From Actinomycetota bacterium (lineage in GTDB: Bacteria > Actinomycetota > Actinomycetes > Nanopelagicales > Nanopelagicaceae), in contig JAPLBP010000074.1 of the NCBI GenBank assembly GCA_026392695.1, forward strand, positions 1-37,171: 37,171 nucleotides of DNA, given 5' to 3'. The position numbers and the translations under genes are program-made. The stretch's first letter is position 1. Each line of letters opens with the position of its first letter. The notes below the pieces were generated by a model. It was not told the DNA's origin. It saw only the letters and a program-made list of their open reading frames with translations, and searched no databases. Below, piece after piece: positions 7,356 through 26,753 of this stretch.

Positions 7356-8967
7356 TTCGGTACGAATAACCCTGCTCGGCAAGGAAACGTTGGCGATTTT
7401 GGGCAAAATCCTGATCGATGGTGTCGCGGGATACAACTGAGTAAAAACGTGCGGTACGGCCATCTGATTTAGGTCGAAGAATACGACCGAGTCGTTGAGC
7501 TTCTTCCTGGCGTGATCCAAATGCTCCCGAAACTTGAATTGCAATCGTCGCTTCGGGGAGATCGATTGAAAAGTTTGCAACTTTGGAAACCACTAGACAT
7601 TTCACTTCTCCGCTGCGAAAAAGCTTGAAGAGTCGTTCGCGCTCTTTTATTGGGGTGTCGCCCTTGATTAACGGAACTCCTAAAACTTCGGCGAGTTCAT
7701 CGAGTTGATCTATGTATTGCCCGATTACTAAAACTTGATCTTGAGAGTGAATCTTTGTAAGAGTTTCAACCACTTTTCTTTTTGTTGCTGTGGTTGCACA
7801 GAGGCGATATCTATTTTCAGGTTCAGCCGTGGCATATGTCATGCGCTCTGCCTCGGTAAGAGTGACACGCACTTCGATGCATTCGGCAGGAGCGATATAA
7901 CCCTGCGCTTCTATCTCTTTCCAAGGAACGTCATAACGCTTGGGCCCTATCAAAGAAAAAACTTCACCCTCTAGCCCATCTTCGCGCACAAGCGTGGCCG
8001 TTAATCCAAGACGTCGACGCGATTGAATATCTGCGGTGAAGCGAAAAATAGGGGCTGGAAGAAGATGAACTTCGTCGTAAATGATCAAGCCCCAGTCGTG
8101 AGTGTCAAAGAGATCCAAATGTGAGTACACGCCATTCTTCTTCTTCGTCATGACCTGATAGGTCGCAATTGTTACTGCGCGAATCTCTTTCTTGGAACCA
8201 GAGTATTCGCCAATTTCATCTTCATGAAGAGTTGTGCGAAGAAGTAGTTCCTCTCGCCATTGTCGTGCGGCAATGGTGTTAGTAACAAGAATCAATGTCG
8301 TCGCCTTAGCGTGAGCCATGGCTGCTGCACCGACAATCGTTTTACCAGCTCCACATGGCAGTACTACAACCCCAGAACCTCCGTGCCAAAAACCTTCTGC
8401 GGCCAACGTTTGATATGGGCGAATGTTCCATCCATTTTGAACGAGTTCGATCTCATGATGTTGTCCGTCTACATATCCAGCAAAATCCTCGGCTGGCCAC
8501 CCCAATCTAAGTAACGCTTGCTTGATCGCACCCCGTTGGCTGGGATGAACGACGATAGTTTCGGCGTCAAGGCGTAAGCCCAAAAGTGGGGCAATTTTCT
8601 TAGCCCGGATGACTTCTTCGAGGACAGCAGTGTCGGTGGTGATAAGTATCAAGCCGTGAACTGGGTCTGCTTCCAACCGAAGGCGCCCGTATCGAGACAT
8701 AGTTTCTGCGATGTCAACCAAAATCGAATGTGGGACTGCGTATCTCGAATACTTTAATAGCGTATCGATAACTTGTTCCGCGTCATGTCCTGCGGCACGC
8801 GCGTTCCAGAGCCCGAGGGAGGTGAGGCGATAAGTGTGGATGTGCTCAGGAGAGCGTTCAAGCTCGGCAAATGGAGCGATCGCGCGTCGACACTCGGTGC
8901 TAAGAGGATGGTCTATGTCTAGCAAAAGAGTTTTATCACTCTGAACGATCAGTGGACCGTCAGTCAT
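7318..8967 (-). CDS. XPB/ERCC3-type DNA helicase
   Basis: 549 aa; motif I PCGAGKT, DEVH box, motif III LTAT, C-terminal QRLGRILRPK; bacterial XPB domain order (cf. mycobacterial Rv0861c). Confidence 0.94.
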   Translation of the reverse strand: MTDGPLIVQSDKTLLLDIDHPLSTECRRAIAPFAELERSPEHIHTYRLTSLGLWNARAAGHDAEQVIDTLLKYSRYAVPHSILVDIAETMSRYGRLRLEADPVHGLILITTDTAVLEEVIRAKKIAPLLGLRLDAETIVVHPSQRGAIKQALLRLGWPAEDFAGYVDGQHHEIELVQNGWNIRPYQTLAAEGFWHGGSGVVVLPCGAGKTIVGAAAMAHAKATTLILVTNTIAARQWREELLLRTTLHEDEIGEYSGSKKEIRAVTIATYQVMTKKKNGVYSHLDLFDTHDWGLIIYDEVHLLPAPIFRFTADIQSRRRLGLTATLVREDGLEGEVFSLIGPKRYDVPWKEIEAQGYIAPAECIEVRVTLTEAERMTYATAEPENRYRLCATTATKRKVVETLTKIHSQDQVLVIGQYIDQLDELAEVLGVPLIKGDTPIKERERLFKLFRSGEVKCLVVSKVANFSIDLPEATIAIQVSGAFGSRQEEAQRLGRILRPKSDGRTARFYSVVSRDTIDQDFAQNRQRFLAEQGYSYRIIDADDVSQGKL

Positions 8968-13188: not shown

Positions 13189-13748
13189 ATGACATCTGTA
13201 CACGTAATTCGTCACGGGGAAGTAGAAAACCCTAAGAAGATTCTTTATGGGCGTCAGCCAGGTTGGCGGTTATCGCAAAGAGGGTTTCGCCCTTGCAAAG
13301 AGCACAAGAAACCAGCGCGCCGATCGCGAAAGCACACAATATTGAAATCACGACAGATGAGCGGCTCATTGAAGCCTCAAATATTTTTGAGGGCGAGCCA
13401 TTTGGTGTTGGCGATGGCGCGCTCTTACGCCCAAGAGCATGGCGTCATCTCTGGAACCCATGGAGACCTTCATGGGGCGAGCCATATGTTGAGCAAGTAG
13501 ATCGCATGCTTGCTGCTGTTTTTACTGCGCATGCGGCTGCAAACGGGAAAGACGCAATTTGCGTATCGCATCAACTCCCGATTTGGATTTTGCGAAGCGC
13601 AATAGAACAACGGCGAATGTTGCACGACCCGCGTAAACGAGAGTGCAGTCTGGCTTCAGTCACATCGATACATTTTGACGACAACGACATGATCTCCGGA
13701 TTGACATATTCAGAACCGGCTCGACATTTGTTGCCTGCGAAAAAGTAA
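13189..13748 (+). pseudogene. Histidine phosphatase family protein, disrupted by an apparent internal deletion plus frameshift at ~13282-13290
   Basis: Frame 1 (13189 onward): MTSVHVIRHGEVENPKKILYGRQPGWRLSQRG. A different frame continues VSPLQRAQETSAPIAKAHNIEI...CVSHQLPIWILRSAIE...LTYSEPARHL to 13748. Both halves align to one actinobacterial family (Rv0525-type), but the linker between LSxRG and SPLQRAQE is missing. Confidence 0.85.
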
Positions 13749-14296: not shown

Positions 14297-15018
14297 AAGA
14301 CTTCTTCGTAAATCAGATTATGGACGCCACTATGGTGACGGCCTTTCCTATTGCGATCATTACTGGACTTATTTCATTTCTTTCCCCGTGCGTACTTCCA
14401 CTTGTTCCCGGATATATTTCCTATGCAGCAGGAATGTCGAAGAGTCGGAGTAAAGTTTTGCTTGGATCCATTCTCTTTATTTCTGGTTTTAGTTTCCTCT
14501 TTGTTTCATACGGCGTTCTTTTTGGTGGCATTGGTTCGAAGATCTTGGGCCACGAAAAAATCATCACCCAAGTTTTGGGAATCTTTACAATCGGACTTGG
14601 GTTAGTTTTCATGGGTCGCTTCCCCCTGATGAGGAGCTTTAAGCCTTCAATATCAACCACGGGTGGACTTCTCGGTGCTCCTTTACTGGGATTTTTATTT
14701 GGTATTGGTTGGACCCCGTGCATCGGTCCAGCACTTGCCGCTGTGGAGACTTTGGCATTCGAGCAAGCTAGCGCCGCCAGAGGCGCAGTTCTTTCCTTTG
14801 GTTATTGCATAGGTTTGGGAATTCCATTCATTCTCTCTGGTCTTTTTCTGGATCGATCAATGAGGTTGCGAGCGTTTATTTCTCGACGCGGCAACTTAAT
14901 TTCGCAAATCGGTGGATGGATGCTTATCGCAATTGGCGTATTACAGGTCTTGGGAATCTGGAATGACGTCATGAATTCCCTTCGTTCAACTATTTCCGGT
15001 TTTATTCCGGTGGTTTAA
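14293..15018 (+). CDS. ccdA: Cytochrome c biogenesis protein CcdA
   Basis: 241 aa membrane protein; SFLSPCVLPLVPGYISYAAG and GWTPCIGPALAAV. Confidence 0.96.
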   Translation: MKDFFVNQIMDATMVTAFPIAIITGLISFLSPCVLPLVPGYISYAAGMSKSRSKVLLGSILFISGFSFLFVSYGVLFGGIGSKILGHEKIITQVLGIFTIGLGLVFMGRFPLMRSFKPSISTTGGLLGAPLLGFLFGIGWTPCIGPALAAVETLAFEQASAARGAVLSFGYCIGLGIPFILSGLFLDRSMRLRAFISRRGNLISQIGGWMLIAIGVLQVLGIWNDVMNSLRSTISGFIPVV

Positions 15019-16497
15019 ATGAGCGAAGTAACGAACGTTCCCGAGGTTGGGCTTAAAGGCCTGCTTCGATTTGTCTGGCGTCAACTGACAAGTATGCGAA
15101 CCGCGCTAATACTTCTTCTCCTGCTGGGCGTGGCTTCTATTCCCGGATCACTTATTCCGCAGAGAGCACAAAACCCGATGAAAGTGCGAGAGTATTTTGC
15201 GAGCGACCCAACGATCGCTTCGTGGATGGATCGGTTATCGCTTTTCGATGTCTACGGTTCAAGTTGGTTCAGCGCAATCTATATTTTGCTTTTCATATCC
15301 TTGATTGGATGTGTCCTGCCGCGTTCGCTTGAACATCTAAGGGCGGCCCGGGCACTTCCTCCTCTCACGCCCCGCAACCTCCATAGAATGGATTTTCATC
15401 AGATGTGGATTGGATCTGGCGAGGAACTTTCCGTTGCCAAGTCGTGGTTCGGGAAAAAGAGATTTCGAATCCGAGACTTTGAAGGTGCCATGTCTGCGGA
15501 GAAGGGTTACTTGCGAGAAAGCGGCAACCTACTTTTTCATCTCGCGCTCATTTTAATACTCATCGGTGTAAGTCTTGGCGCCCTTTTCAGTATGAATGGC
15601 GAGGCCATAGTAAATGTTGGGGAACGTTTCATAAACACACCAACGACCTATGACGACTTGAGCTACGGCAGACTTTTCCGAGATAGTTCATTGCCACCTT
15701 TCTCCCTTACTGTTGATGATTTCAAGGCAACGTATAACCCAGCCACGAGCGCTCCCGAGGATTACACCTTGAAAGTCAGTGTCATTGAAAAACCCGGAGC
15801 AAAGCCAGTATCCCGAATAATAAAAGTGAACAGTCCGCTTGGATTCGGAAGTACAAATGTATATTTACAAGCCAACGGTTACTCTCCAGTTGTAACTGTG
15901 AAGAACAAAGAAGGCGAGATTGTTCTGCAAGGGCCTATTCCATTTTTGCCTCAAGACTCCAACATGACTTCTATTGGGGCAATAAAAGTTCCAGATACTT
16001 CTCCTCAACTTGGATTTGTAGCCTCGTTCCTCCCGACAGCAGCACGTGACAAGGTTCGCGGTGGTATTTCTTCATATCCAGCAGCGTTAGATCCGCGACT
16101 TCTACTTTCCGTCTGGAAAGGCGATCTGGGACTAGATCGAGGAATTCCACAGTCTGTCTATCGAATTGACACTTCAAAGATGCAAAAAATTGGACTCAAA
16201 GCTTTGAAAGTGGGAGATACCTTCACATATGCTGATGGAAGTATTCGCTTTGACGGCGTAGAGCAGTGGGTGAATCTGCAGGTCGTAAAAGACCCGGGCA
16301 AGGGGTATGCCCTTTTTGGGGGTATCCTCGCCATTCTTGGTTTGCTTGCTTCACTATTTACTCGACGTCGTCGAATCTGGGTTCGAGTGAATTCAGAGGG
16401 AACGGTAGAGGTAGCGGGTCTAGCGAAGAGCGGGGCCCCAGGCCTTGCTGAGGAAATCGATCAGCTGATCACGGACTTGAGGAGAGCCAATCCATGA
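15019..16497 (+). CDS. resB: Cytochrome c biogenesis protein ResB
   Basis: 492 aa; LTSMRTALILLLLLGVASIPGSLIPQR, ResB family architecture. Confidence 0.96.
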   Translation: MSEVTNVPEVGLKGLLRFVWRQLTSMRTALILLLLLGVASIPGSLIPQRAQNPMKVREYFASDPTIASWMDRLSLFDVYGSSWFSAIYILLFISLIGCVLPRSLEHLRAARALPPLTPRNLHRMDFHQMWIGSGEELSVAKSWFGKKRFRIRDFEGAMSAEKGYLRESGNLLFHLALILILIGVSLGALFSMNGEAIVNVGERFINTPTTYDDLSYGRLFRDSSLPPFSLTVDDFKATYNPATSAPEDYTLKVSVIEKPGAKPVSRIIKVNSPLGFGSTNVYLQANGYSPVVTVKNKEGEIVLQGPIPFLPQDSNMTSIGAIKVPDTSPQLGFVASFLPTAARDKVRGGISSYPAALDPRLLLSVWKGDLGLDRGIPQSVYRIDTSKMQKIGLKALKVGDTFTYADGSIRFDGVEQWVNLQVVKDPGKGYALFGGILAILGLLASLFTRRRRIWVRVNSEGTVEVAGLAKSGAPGLAEEIDQLITDLRRANP

Positions 16498-18930: not shown

Positions 18931-19785
18931 TTATGCAAGCCAGAGAGAGATTGCTAACAGGAGAGCAAAGAGAAGTTGGAGTTGACCAGTTTTTGCTAGG
19001 AGTGGGATAAGTGCTGCTCCTTCTGCGTTTCCGTTTACTTTTCGAGCAAGGCTTAACGACAGTGGCGCTACGGCTAAGGTGAGAAGCGCCCATGGTGTAA
19101 CAAATAGGGCAACCACATGAGCAATCAGCAAAAGCATTGCAAAAAAGAATCGACTTCCGTCATCTCCCATGCGCACTGCCAAGGTCCTCTTGCCCACAAG
19201 TGCATCTTTCTCACGGTCCCTTATGTTGTTGATCGCGAGCAATGAACAAGACAGAGCACCTATTGGAACCGAGATAAGAAATGAGTTGAGGGTTAGCTTT
19301 TCGGTCTGGACGAAGAAGGTACCCATCGTGGCAACGAGTCCAAAAAAGACGAAGACTGAAATTTCTCCAAATCCACTGTATCCATAAGGGGATTTTCCTC
19401 CTGTATAAAACCAGGCCGCAGCAATGGCTATCGCGCCAACCAAGAGAATCCACCACGAACTTAGCGCCGCAAGAGCCAGTCCAGAAACGCCTGCTACAAA
19501 AAATGAAATAAAGGCCGCCTTCTTTACTGCCAGCGGTGTAGCAAGGCCACTCGCAACAATGCGCGTTGGTCCTATCCTGTCTGTATCCGTTCCGCGAACG
19601 CCATCGGAATAATCATTTGCATAGTTAACAGCGATTTGAAGTGAAAGGCTAACAACGAGTGCGAGTAAAGCGCGCAGGATATTGCTCTGTGAGCCAGCCA
19701 GTGCCGTGGCAACCAAGACTGGAGTAACAGCCGCTGGGAGCGTGCGAGGCCGAGCTCCCTTTACCCATGTATCAACTGTCGTCAT
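18931..19785 (-). CDS. menA: 1,4-dihydroxy-2-naphthoate polyprenyltransferase
   Basis: 284 aa; WVKGARPRTLPAAVTPVLV, NYANDYSDGVRGTD, NNIRDREKDALVGKRTLAVR. Confidence 0.96.
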   Translation of the reverse strand: MTTVDTWVKGARPRTLPAAVTPVLVATALAGSQSNILRALLALVVSLSLQIAVNYANDYSDGVRGTDTDRIGPTRIVASGLATPLAVKKAAFISFFVAGVSGLALAALSSWWILLVGAIAIAAAWFYTGGKSPYGYSGFGEISVFVFFGLVATMGTFFVQTEKLTLNSFLISVPIGALSCSLLAINNIRDREKDALVGKRTLAVRMGDDGSRFFFAMLLLIAHVVALFVTPWALLTLAVAPLSLSLARKVNGNAEGAALIPLLAKTGQLQLLFALLLAISLWLA

Positions 19786-20797
19786 TTCAGACCTCTCTGC
19801 GCAGTGGCTAATTCTATTAGGGCTCGACGATCGACTTTCCCGATTAGCGTGTAAGGAAATTCAGCAATTATTAAGAAGCCTTTGGGTTTTGCAACATGAC
19901 CAAGGGCGCGAGTAAGGGAATCAGATATTTCCTCTTGTGAAATGTCGGAGTTTTGAGCGAGGGCAATGTGAAGAGCGCTGCCCCATTCAGCATCATCCAA
20001 GGTGAACGCAGCCAAAGCCGCTGCCGGGTGATCCTTCCTTATTGCCGCCTCGCTGAATCAAATGAGCCCAGATCCTTTGTAAGAAACCAACCGTCTTGAA
20101 GAGATTCCAACCATTCGATCTCATTGTTGAGATATGTTGTCGCTAAAACTGCACCCTTAATTGCAATGTATCCATCGCGTATTTCAACATCGACGCCGTC
20201 TAGAGGTATTCCGTTGTAAACGCATCCGCCGCAGGTTTCAGTCATTCCATACGTGGTGACGATATTTATTCCAGCATCTTTTGCTTGAGAATGTAATTCG
20301 TCGGTAAGTGCCGCGCCTCCTACTAGTACTGCTTTGCAGTCACGTAGGTGGTTTAGCAATAGCTGGTCTCCGTTTAGTGCTCGGAATAGTTGGGTCGGCA
20401 CAATTGCCGTGAAATCTGCTTTCGGGAATTCAACTGCATTCCTTAAATCAATGGCAGCGGTACCAAGTCCTAAACTTCGCGCTAGAACATTGACTCCGGC
20501 AATGTGGGTCAACGGCAACAACAATGACCATGTGTCCCCAAACCGAGCACCGAGGAAGTCATTTGACGATTTTGCGGAAGCAATAATCGCTCTCGAACTC
20601 AGTGCCACTTCTTTTGCGGCCCCAGTAGAGCCACTCGTGGCGACCACAATCGCGATGGAGGCGGGTACTTCGTGGGAGGTTGATGGCCCGAACGCTAACG
20701 CGGGTCCGACGCCAGATAACGCCCTAGCCAGATCATCCATTGCGGCTTGGGCGGAAACGTTGTTGATCGAGCGGAGCTCTTTTGTTAGATTTTCCAT
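19782..20797 (-). pseudogene. menE: o-succinylbenzoate-CoA ligase, split by an apparent internal deletion plus frameshift at ~20045-20062
   Basis: N-terminal ORF 20039-20797 has IVVATSGSTGAAKEVALS, TTYGMTETCGG, GWFLTKDLGSFDS and then a stop. A second frame reads FSEAAIRKDHPAAALAAFTLDDAEWGSALHIAL...FPYTLIGKVDRRAL (to 19782). Together they make one MenE, but the hinge/A8 region (GRxDDxI..GGE) is absent. Confidence 0.88.
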
Positions 20798-20838: not shown

Positions 20839-21717
20839 GTGAGCAAGCCTATTAAGCGTGAATTCGGCAGTCGTTCGATTCCGGAATGGAAAGTTGGCGA
20901 AGGCGGAGAGAATTTTGTGGATGTTATCTACGAAACTGCCGATGGCATCGCCAAGATCACTATCAACCGCCCTCAAGTCCGTAACGCTTTCCGTCCACAA
21001 ACGATTATTGAATTGCAAAACGCTTTTTCACTCGCCCGTGATGCCGAAGACGTGGGCGTAATCATTTTGACAGGTGCGGGACATGAAGCATTTTGTTCAG
21101 GCGGAGATATCGCAGTGCGCGGTGACGATGGCTATTTAGGCGATGACCCGTTGGCAAAGAAAGGTATTGGACGTCTCAACGTCCTTGATCTTCAAATTCA
21201 GATTCGACGTACACCAAAACCTGTAGTCGCGATGGTTGCGGGTTGGGCAATTGGCGGTGGCCATGTACTTCACGTTGTTTGCGATCTGACGATTGCGGCA
21301 GACAACGCAAAGTTCGGTCAGACAGGTCCGATGGTTGGTTCATTTGATGGTGGTTATGGCGCGGGTCTGCTGGCAGCGCACGTTGGCCAGAAGAAAGCGA
21401 GAGAAATTTGGTTTCTTACTCGACAATACGATGCTCAAGAAGCCCTTCAGATGGGATTAGTTAACACGGTTGTACCGGTGGATGAATTGGAAGCAGAAAC
21501 CGTGTCGTGGTGTCGGGAAATGCTTCGCAATTCGCCAATGGCGCTTCGACTATTAAAAGCGAGCTTGAACGCGGCAGATGATGGGCTTGCCGGAGTACAA
21601 CAACTCGCTGGTGATGCGACTCTTCTTTTCTATATGTCTCAAGAAGGCCAAGAGGGCCGCGATGCCTACAAAGAAAAGCGCGCTCCAGATTTTGGAAAGT
21701 TTCCAAGGCGCCCATAA
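20839..21717 (+). CDS. menB: 1,4-dihydroxy-2-naphthoyl-CoA synthase
   Basis: 292 aa; crotonase fold with [46 protein letters not shown] start after AGGAGG. Confidence 0.96.
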
Positions 21718-22689
21718 ATGCTTGATTCAATTCTTGAATCACTCCATGTTGTTGCGTTGCCGACGAAAACAAATTTTCGCTCTGTGCTCGTCCGTGAGGT
21801 TGCACTATTTGAAGGACCAGAGGGATGGGGCGAGTTTTCGCCATTTCTGGAATATGACGCAGATGAGTGCGTCCCTTGGCTTGCGAGCGCCATTGAATCT
21901 GTAACAGTTGCGCCCCCATCTCTGAATCGCGACGTAATTAAAATCAATGCAACACTTCCAGCGATAAACGGAAGGGAAAAGATTGAGCAAGTTCTCTCGT
22001 GGTTTCCAGGTTGTCGGGTGGCCAAGATTAAAGTGGGGGAAGATTTCAACCAGGACTTAACTCGAATTAAACTTGCTCAAGAAATTATCCCAGGTCTAGA
22101 AGTTCGTCTTGATGTAAATGGCCAATGGACCACGAGGCAAGCGCTCCAGTATCTGGGGGATATTTACTCTCAGGTTAGTAACATCCAATACGTGGAACAA
22201 CCTTGCGCGACACTGGAAGAATTACGGGAGTTAAAGAAATCCCTTGAGGTTCCGATTTTGATCGCAGGAGATGAGGTAATTCGTAAAGCAAGAGACCCAT
22301 TTAGCCTGGATCTTGAGGGAGCAGTCGATATCGTAATGCTGAAAGTTGCCCCTCTCGGCGGAATCAAAAGATCACTGGCACTTGCAAAGTTTCATGGCCT
22401 TCCCGTAGTTGTTTCCAGTGCTCTTGATTCTGCGGTGGGAATTTCTCGAGGACTGCTATTGGCGGGAGCGTTGCCCGAAATTTCGTACGCTTGCGGACTA
22501 GGCACTGGGGCGTTGCTCGAAGCAGATGTGTCGGATCTCGCAATCACTCATGGAGATATTCAAATAGTTTCTGTAAAGCCTTCAATCCAAGCGCTCAAAA
22601 AGTACGGTGCAACCAAGGATCGTGTTGAATGGTGGAAGGCCAGGATTAGGCAGACTTGGCTAGCCGGAGCGGAAAGAGGTGAGTGGTAG
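21718..22689 (+). CDS. menC: o-succinylbenzoate synthase
   Basis: 323 aa enolase superfamily; KIKVGEDF, RLDVNGQW, YVEQPC, IAGDE, LKVAPLGG. Confidence 0.93.
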   Translation: MLDSILESLHVVALPTKTNFRSVLVREVALFEGPEGWGEFSPFLEYDADECVPWLASAIESVTVAPPSLNRDVIKINATLPAINGREKIEQVLSWFPGCRVAKIKVGEDFNQDLTRIKLAQEIIPGLEVRLDVNGQWTTRQALQYLGDIYSQVSNIQYVEQPCATLEELRELKKSLEVPILIAGDEVIRKARDPFSLDLEGAVDIVMLKVAPLGGIKRSLALAKFHGLPVVVSSALDSAVGISRGLLLAGALPEISYACGLGTGALLEADVSDLAITHGDIQIVSVKPSIQALKKYGATKDRVEWWKARIRQTWLAGAERGEW

Positions 22690-22691
22690 AG

Positions 22692-24269
22692 ATGAACACT
22701 GCGACAAATCTTGCGCGCGCAATTGTGGTGCGCCTCCTTTCCGAAGGAATCACTGACGTTGTTCTATCACCAGGTTCGCGCAACGCTCCACTTTCCATCG
22801 CACTTTTTGCCGCGGAACAAAAGAGTTTAATTACTTTACATGTTCATATTGATGAAAGATCTGCAGGGTTTTTTGCGCTCGGGATTTCCAAGGCATCGAA
22901 CCGACCTGTCGCGATTGTTTGCACGAGTGGAACGGCAGTGGCAAATTACCATCCCGCGATATTGGAAGCTTGGCATTCTCAAGTTCCGTTGCTGGTGTTG
23001 ACTGCGGATCGACCGGCGCGTCTTCGTGAGACGGGTGCAAACCAGACGACTCTGCAATCAGGGATCTTTATGGATGCCGTTGCGTATAGTGCAGATGTAG
23101 AAGACATGGAATTTGATTTTGACTCTGCCTTCGATTCTTTATCCACTGGTCCAGTTCACTTAAATGTGCAATTCGATGAACCGCTTTTGCCCGATGATGA
23201 AGCTGATTGGCTAGTTGGTCTAACTACACAAGCTCGTGGGGTTATTTCAAAGCACGCCGCAAAGGATTTGCACATTGACACCCAGCTCGGTGTCATAGTC
23301 GTTGGTCACGATCGAGCGGGATTTTCCGTTGAGGATCTTGAAGAATTTGCTGGCAAAGTAGGCTGGCCCATTCTGGTTGAAGATCCACTCTCTTTCAAGA
23401 CGTCAATAGCTCACGCATCGCTTTTTCTCACTGCATCCCATGTGCGTGAGGTGTTAAAACCTGAGTGTGTGATTGTTATTGGCCGTACAACTTTGTCACG
23501 TTCTATCAATGCGCTAATCAAATCTGCCGGACGTGAAATTGTTATCGACCCTCGGATTGAGTTTGTAGACACGAAAAGAGTGGCAGACGAAATCTTTTTT
23601 AATTTGCCCACTCCAGTTGGCGAATTAATGCCCAGCGATGAGTGGCTCGCGAGATGGAAGGATTACTCAGCAAAAACTGAGTCGCTTATTCGGGGAATGG
23701 ATGCGTGGGGTGAGCCCACCATTTGCGGGGCAATTTCGGAAAGTTTGGAAAATGGAAGCGCTTTCTATCTCTCATCCTCTAGGCCTATTAGAGATATTGA
23801 AGGTTTTTCCACTCCACGTGCTGGTGTTGAAACATTTGCCAATAGAGGCTTGGCTGGAATCGATGGGAATATTTCCACTTCGGTTGGCATCGCCTCGCAG
23901 CGCAAATCGACAACCGCTCTCATGGGAGATCTTTCTTTTTTACATGATCACAATGGGCTCTTGTCAGCACAAAAAGTTGCGCTTCGAATTATCGTTCTGA
24001 ATAACAACGGTGGAGGTATTTTTTCTACCTTGCCACAAAATGGGGTAAAAGGATTTGAGAAGATCTTTGGTACCCCTCACGGTTATGATCTCGCGGCGAT
24101 TTCCTCCGCGTTAGGAATCCGAACGGTGACGGTTTCGACAGTGGCTGCACTCAAGGACGAGTTGGTATCACCTATTGTCGAACTCTCAGTTGTTATCGTT
24201 GAACTTCCTTCAAGGGAGAAGAACGCGGAAGTTCTTCGTTCACTGTACGAAGCAATTGCAAAGTTCTAA
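22692..24269 (+). CDS. menD: SEPHCHC synthase MenD
   Basis: ThDP enzyme; VVLSPGSRNAPLSIAL, HIDERSAGFFALG, CTSGTAVANYHPA, MGDLSFLHDHNGL, NNNGGGIFS. Confidence 0.96.
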   Translation: MNTATNLARAIVVRLLSEGITDVVLSPGSRNAPLSIALFAAEQKSLITLHVHIDERSAGFFALGISKASNRPVAIVCTSGTAVANYHPAILEAWHSQVPLLVLTADRPARLRETGANQTTLQSGIFMDAVAYSADVEDMEFDFDSAFDSLSTGPVHLNVQFDEPLLPDDEADWLVGLTTQARGVISKHAAKDLHIDTQLGVIVVGHDRAGFSVEDLEEFAGKVGWPILVEDPLSFKTSIAHASLFLTASHVREVLKPECVIVIGRTTLSRSINALIKSAGREIVIDPRIEFVDTKRVADEIFFNLPTPVGELMPSDEWLARWKDYSAKTESLIRGMDAWGEPTICGAISESLENGSAFYLSSSRPIRDIEGFSTPRAGVETFANRGLAGIDGNISTSVGIASQRKSTTALMGDLSFLHDHNGLLSAQKVALRIIVLNNNGGGIFSTLPQNGVKGFEKIFGTPHGYDLAAISSALGIRTVTVSTVAALKDELVSPIVELSVVIVELPSREKNAEVLRSLYEAIAKF

Positions 24270-25492
24270 GTCTTGGTTAGCGCACTCATCATCGGTGCGA
24301 ATTTAGCTTGGCTCTCATCAAGTTCCCGAACTGGATCTGATCCAGACACGATTCCACATCCGGCATAGAGGCGAATTTTATTTCCTTCGACCTGGCCACA
24401 TCGCAGGGCGATTCCTAGTTCGCCGTCACCTCGAGCATCAATCCACCCGACGGGACCGGCATATCTGCCACGTGCCATACCTTCCAATGTCGAAATTACT
24501 TTCGTAGCGATATCTGTTGGTGTCCCGCAAACAGCGGCGGAGGGATGTAATTTTTCTAGGATTGAAAAGACATCGAAGTGCTGTGAAGTTTCCGCTAGGG
24601 CACCTGTCACATCGGTAGCCAAATGCATGACGTTTGCGAGGTGAAGCACAAAGGGCGAATCGGGAACATTCGTTGAGGAGCAAAAGGGGGCCAGTGACTC
24701 AGCTACGGACCTAACCGCATACTCGTGTTCTTCTAGATCCTTGGATGAGCGAGCAAGTGATCCGGCCAATGCAAGATCTTTCTCATCATCACCAGTTCTC
24801 GTAATTGTTCCGGCAAGCACTCGCGAAGTGACCATCGATCGATTCAGGCGAAGAAGAAGTTCTGGCGTAGCACCAATCAGGCCCGCAACGGAAAAGCACC
24901 ACGTAGATGGGTATTCCTCTTCAAGGTTGCGCAAAATTTGGCGGGGATCAATCTGACTATCGGCCGTTCCATTGAGATCGCGAGCTAAAACAACTTTGTC
25001 GATCTGTCCCGCCGCGATCGCCGCGATCGCTTCAGCTACACGTTCTTGCCATACTTCTGGAGTAAGGGTTCCATTTCTCCATGAATATTTGGGAGCGCTC
25101 GTACTATCAATTTCACCCAACAAAACTGGCTGAGGATTTTGCCCTATCCATGTAATCCAGGATTGACCACCACGATTTCCCACAATTACTTTTGGAATTA
25201 CGAGGACAGATTCTTCCTCTTGAGAAAAGGAAAAGGAGGAAAAAAGAAGTGGCCCAGTTCCACTGCTGTGCACTGTGTCAGTAATTGAAAACGTACCTAA
25301 CTGCTGGTGCCACCACTCACGAGCATCGCGAAATCGATTTTTCCCCGTGACCGTTGTCGTGGCATGTACTCCCCAACCAACTAGTCCTTCTCCTCTGCGA
25401 ACCCATGAAAGTGGCTCTGCGTCCGGAAGTAGTTGGAGGAGCGGTAAGTGATCGCCGATGCGCGCACTTGTGACAGGGATGAGAGGGGGCAC
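24266..25492 (-). CDS. menF: Isochorismate synthase
   Basis: 408 aa chorismate-utilising enzyme; KVVLARD, GATPELLLR, LAGTITRTGDD, KLHPSAAVCGTPT, GRYAGPVGWID, AGCGIVSGSDP. Confidence 0.93.
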   Translation of the reverse strand: MPPLIPVTSARIGDHLPLLQLLPDAEPLSWVRRGEGLVGWGVHATTTVTGKNRFRDAREWWHQQLGTFSITDTVHSSGTGPLLFSSFSFSQEEESVLVIPKVIVGNRGGQSWITWIGQNPQPVLLGEIDSTSAPKYSWRNGTLTPEVWQERVAEAIAAIAAGQIDKVVLARDLNGTADSQIDPRQILRNLEEEYPSTWCFSVAGLIGATPELLLRLNRSMVTSRVLAGTITRTGDDEKDLALAGSLARSSKDLEEHEYAVRSVAESLAPFCSSTNVPDSPFVLHLANVMHLATDVTGALAETSQHFDVFSILEKLHPSAAVCGTPTDIATKVISTLEGMARGRYAGPVGWIDARGDGELGIALRCGQVEGNKIRLYAGCGIVSGSDPVRELDESQAKFAPMMSALTKT

Positions 25493-26002: not shown

Positions 26003-26060
26003 GACTTTTAACAGTCAGGGTAATTTGTGGCGCAAGCCTACTCTGGACAACAATACGGGT

Positions 26061-26753
26061 ATGTCCCGCGCCAATCTTGATAAAGATCCAGATGAAGTGG
26101 CAGCAATGTTTGACGCAGTGGCCAAGCGCTACGACCTGGTCAATGATCTTTTGAGCCTCGGGCGAACGAAGGCATGGCGAAAAGTTGCCACCTCCATCAT
26201 CGCCCCGACAGCAGGGATGAAAATATTGGATTTAGCGGCTGGGACTGGGTCATCTAGTGAGCCACTGGCCGCTGCTGGTGCTGAGGTCATTCCAGCCGAT
26301 TTTTCAGAAGGGATGTTGGCGGCTGGCCGAAAGGCCCGCCCTCACCTGCCCTTTACCAAGGCCGATGCCCTCAATTTGCCCTTCAAAGAGGGCGAATTTG
26401 ACGTTGTCACCATCTCTTTTGGCCTGCGCAATACCGCTGATATCGATAAGGCGTTGCGCGAAATGCTTCGTGTTACCAAAAGCGGGGGCCGATTGGCCGT
26501 TGTGGAGTTTTCACATCCTGTCTGGCGCCCGTTTCGTACCATTTATACCAATTATCTGATGCGAGCCCTTCCTTTTATTGCTCGGTTTACCTCCAGCAAT
26601 CCGGATGCCTATATCTATCTGGCTCAATCGATCCGGGCCTGGCCAAATCAAGTCGATCTGGCTGCCCGCATTGAGGCGGCAGGATGGACGAAGGCCCATT
26701 GGACCAACCTCACCGGGGGAGTTGTCGCAGTTCACACAGCTCTCAAGGCATAA
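26061..26753 (+). CDS. menG: Demethylmenaquinone methyltransferase
   Basis: UbiE/MenG family; [53 protein letters not shown] at 26061. Confidence 0.95.

Follow-up and report, generated by a model that had tools for sequence, protein, structure and literature searches.

The men genes of the window and the divided menE

The window, meaning the whole 37,171-nt stretch of DNA analysed here, carries menA, menE, menB, menC, menD, and menF, as well as a menG/ubiE-like gene (26025–26753) named by sequence. Family cut-offs are exceeded by menA (18931–19785, minus strand; NF004751 and TIGR00751), menB (20839–21717, plus strand; NF005637 and TIGR01929), menC (21718–22689, plus strand; NF002782), menD (22683–24269, plus strand; TIGR00173), and the isochorismate synthase gene menF (24266–25492, minus strand; TIGR00543), all of which are intact, as they had seemed to be in a preliminary description of this DNA. 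The minus-strand menE is split at ~20052 in the letters of the assembly, as read from the open frames of the window. Its upstream frame (20797–20039, 252 aa) ends in GWFLTKDLGSFDS-ARRQ, with the final four residues foreign and out of frame, followed by TAA. A second minus-strand frame (20057–19782), which reads EAAIRKDHP...GKVDRRAL, runs up to menA. The join (20045–20060, minus strand) sits between ~20054, where the Ser codon of FDS ends, and ~20051, where EAAI starts. At the other end of this second frame, the menE stop and the menA start overlap (ATGA, 19782–19785), and a similar overlap is found at the menE end in several relatives, which suggests translational coupling.

Both pieces match consecutive parts of the short actinobacterial form of MenE (NCBIfam NF005877 / PRK07824, 362 positions). 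The N-terminal part, which also matches PF00501, corresponds to positions 37–253 (E 4e-52) and the C-terminal part, in the other frame, to positions 279–360 (E 6e-6), and jointly they cover all but ~25 positions of the model. The C-terminal frame also matches the end of TIGR01923, and its match to PF13193 is below the cut-off. The location, before menA and beside menB, is likewise that of the known form. The difference here is a gap of ~25 residues that takes in the A8 hinge block, together with a shift of frame, and because of this neither piece reaches the curated NF005877 cut-off (177 and 25.5 bits versus 345), so that there is no full-length family match. The phosphate-binding TSGSTG, the YGMTE motif, and the C-terminal catalytic Lys (GKVDRRAL) are found in the pieces and align with relatives. 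Away from the join, menE has no further lesion and its conserved motifs are kept.

The missing hinge block and menE in relatives

A single uninterrupted menE, in an open frame of 365 to 375 codons, is present in each of the other 20 genomes of the genus. None of these genomes is conspecific, and the nearest MenE is ~67% identical; the loci nearest to the window come from actinobacterial metagenome-assembled genomes, some of them named Candidatus Planktophila or Nanopelagicales. When the menE of relatives was aligned to the window by tblastn, the same gap opened each time against an uninterrupted reference: the net loss is 73 nt, or 24 codons and one base, versus each of four relatives. The block that is gone is GRxDDxIxSGGE, the A8 hinge, which reads GKLKIQGRVDDVIVSGGEKISLNAV in one relative. 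Taken as a test of MenE membership, this block is absent here and kept in 20/20 of the other genus genomes. The preliminary description had proposed that the two frames are flanks of a single MenE C-terminal region, from which a deletion plus frameshift had removed the hinge motif. Its coordinates for both frames are exact, and the model matches and the comparison with relatives confirm this account of the assembled letters.

A chance pair of open reading frames was ruled out by the consecutive NF005877 matches, the constant loss of 73 nt, and the intact menE of relatives. The assembled sequence around the join contains no N run, no duplicated end, and no flanking direct repeat. On the last of these points, and as far as the assembled flanks show, a repeat-mediated deletion was rejected.

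ANL enzymes turn their C-terminal domain by ~140 degrees between half-reactions (PMC6594144), and because of this rotation a MenE without the hinge should fail. A functional split MenE, working as two chains or as a fusion made by programmed frameshifting, is vanishingly unlikely: both frames are open as far as the join, but a fused chain would still be without the A8 block that every relative keeps, its C-terminal domain would still have to rotate, and a split gene occurs in no relative.

Gram-positive bacteria have been described as having menaquinone as their only quinone for electron transport (PMC6594144). Searches with PF00501, PF13193, and NF005877, following up a suggestion of the preliminary description, found no further OSB-CoA ligase in the assembly to which the window belongs; the other AMP-binding genes there are acetyl-CoA-synthetase-like, long-chain acyl-CoA-ligase-like, and one weak match (E 0.11). 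This absence is expected if menE is truly intact. We consider it highly improbable that a freshwater actinobacterium truly lost the MenE hinge and with it its own OSB-CoA ligase, and that it uses another ligase or scavenged quinone precursors.

Frame-broken genes across the assembly

The source is a scaffolded metagenome-assembled genome of 155 contigs, rated 92.7% complete. We scanned 807 kb of this assembly against proteins read from 800 kb of a relative (G013, 3 contigs), taking matches of at least 55% identity, and as a control we ran the same scan on 797 kb of relatives' contigs, which came from 20 contigs of G019, three recA loci, and the loci nearest to the window. Matches with internal stops, mostly alignments overrunning a gene start or end, were left uncounted. 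Conserved gene matches broken into adjacent frames numbered 10/180 in this assembly versus 2/508 in the relatives (Fisher p = 5e-5), and one of the two broken control matches adjoins N gaps. Net changes among the ten broken genes range from −158 to +40 nt, where the lesion sizes of the ettA-like gene and of L159 are approximate owing to ambiguous alignment ends. The broken set includes recA, an ettA-like ABC-F gene, leuB, hflX, a pgsA-like gene, a dapF-like gene, and two transporters; the identities of recA and leuB are backed by family searches and the other names are readings of the sequence. Genus-wide searches found recA and leuB broken within a contig in this genome only, of 21; leuB is intact in 20/20 relatives, and recA is divided between contigs in two relatives and was not found in one.

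The window itself holds a second broken gene, a histidine-phosphatase-like gene with an RHG motif (13189–13748, plus strand). According to its frames and the intact L034 protein, ~61 nt are lost near 13275 (−61 nt versus both L034 and L037). This gene, intact in L034 and L037, precedes a thioredoxin-like gene and a resB/ccsA-like cluster.

Several of the broken genes bear marks of joining. N runs of 30 and 47 nt interrupt two of the ten, on the contig that also bears the broken recA and hflX. The N gaps inside genes of that contig (L163) lie at 8157–8186 and 14978–15024. Around 20 short N runs of 6 to 84 nt occur in 770 kb sampled outside the window, and some short contigs are wholly N besides; gaps of this kind, short, unequal in length, and placed within genes, point to scaffolds that were joined by estimated distance. 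The recA lesion (L163 = G000 C81, 11697–11773, minus strand) is an extra 38-nt near-duplicate. Its two copies are identical apart from three synonymous differences, a pattern that would follow from butting together the alleles of two strains. The leuB gene (L136 = G000 C14, 10189–11188, minus strand) is broken twice, once by an exactly doubled 14-nt end and once by a loss of ~58 nt. The remaining lesions, including that of menE, are losses with neither a repeat nor an N at the join.

Genome-wide decay, with many real young pseudogenes and menE among them, would also leave conserved genes broken, here ~5% of them, but we regard it as extremely improbable: recA and housekeeping genes are in the broken set, lesions fall at N gaps and at the near-duplicate resembling two alleles, and the broken genes otherwise retain high identity, e.g., 97% on one side of the recA lesion and 93% on the other.

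A real loss of menE that breaks menaquinone synthesis, as the preliminary description envisaged, is not supported: recA, leuB (twice), hflX, the ettA-like gene, and others carry similar indels that break the frame, and short N gaps lie inside genes. Such a loss would be a recent 73-nt deletion, in the lineage or in one strain, that abolishes OSB-CoA synthetase. It would fit the two clean frames, the identical loss versus every reference, and an assembly without a second OSB-CoA ligase, yet it is very unlikely, as lesions of the same type affect recA, leuB, hflX, and other genes in this assembly only and menE is kept by all 20 relatives. The intact remainder of the men pathway also argues that the break is not real in the organism.

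Contig joining as the probable source of the menE break

Because this draft genome has similar breaks in many conserved genes that are unrelated, the menE break is almost certainly a joining error, that is, an unmarked contig join produced during assembly. As menE itself shows no N run or duplicated end, we infer its join from what is seen in other genes of this assembly, and any one of the sites, taken singly, could be a true small deletion. The organism almost certainly carries one ordinary menE before menA. A metagenome with a mixture of strains would have been assembled into short contigs, which would then have been joined by estimated distance. A positive distance estimate would have left the N runs of 6 to 84 nt, and with a zero or negative estimate the ends would have been abutted unmarked. 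At such ends, bases without coverage would be lost, as with the 73 nt of menE, or an overlap would be kept twice, as with the 38 nt of recA and the 14 nt of leuB.

The menE break teaches nothing new about menaquinone synthesis. Its meaning is that contigs joined without a mark, in a metagenome-assembled genome rated this complete, can mimic the loss of an essential enzyme, and claims of gene loss made from this assembly (menE, recA, leuB, hflX) need reads first; reads across the join would be expected to yield one open menE frame. Misassembly in metagenomes is known to arise from strain mixtures and from external scaffolding (PMC8021871). In contrast to the cases reviewed there, the exact joining step in the present genome is deduced from its products. 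These products are spread over unrelated genes and comprise losses that bear no mark, N gaps, and ends that are near-duplicates; they resemble the misassembly known where contigs are joined in metagenome-assembled genomes from strain mixtures (PMC8021871).
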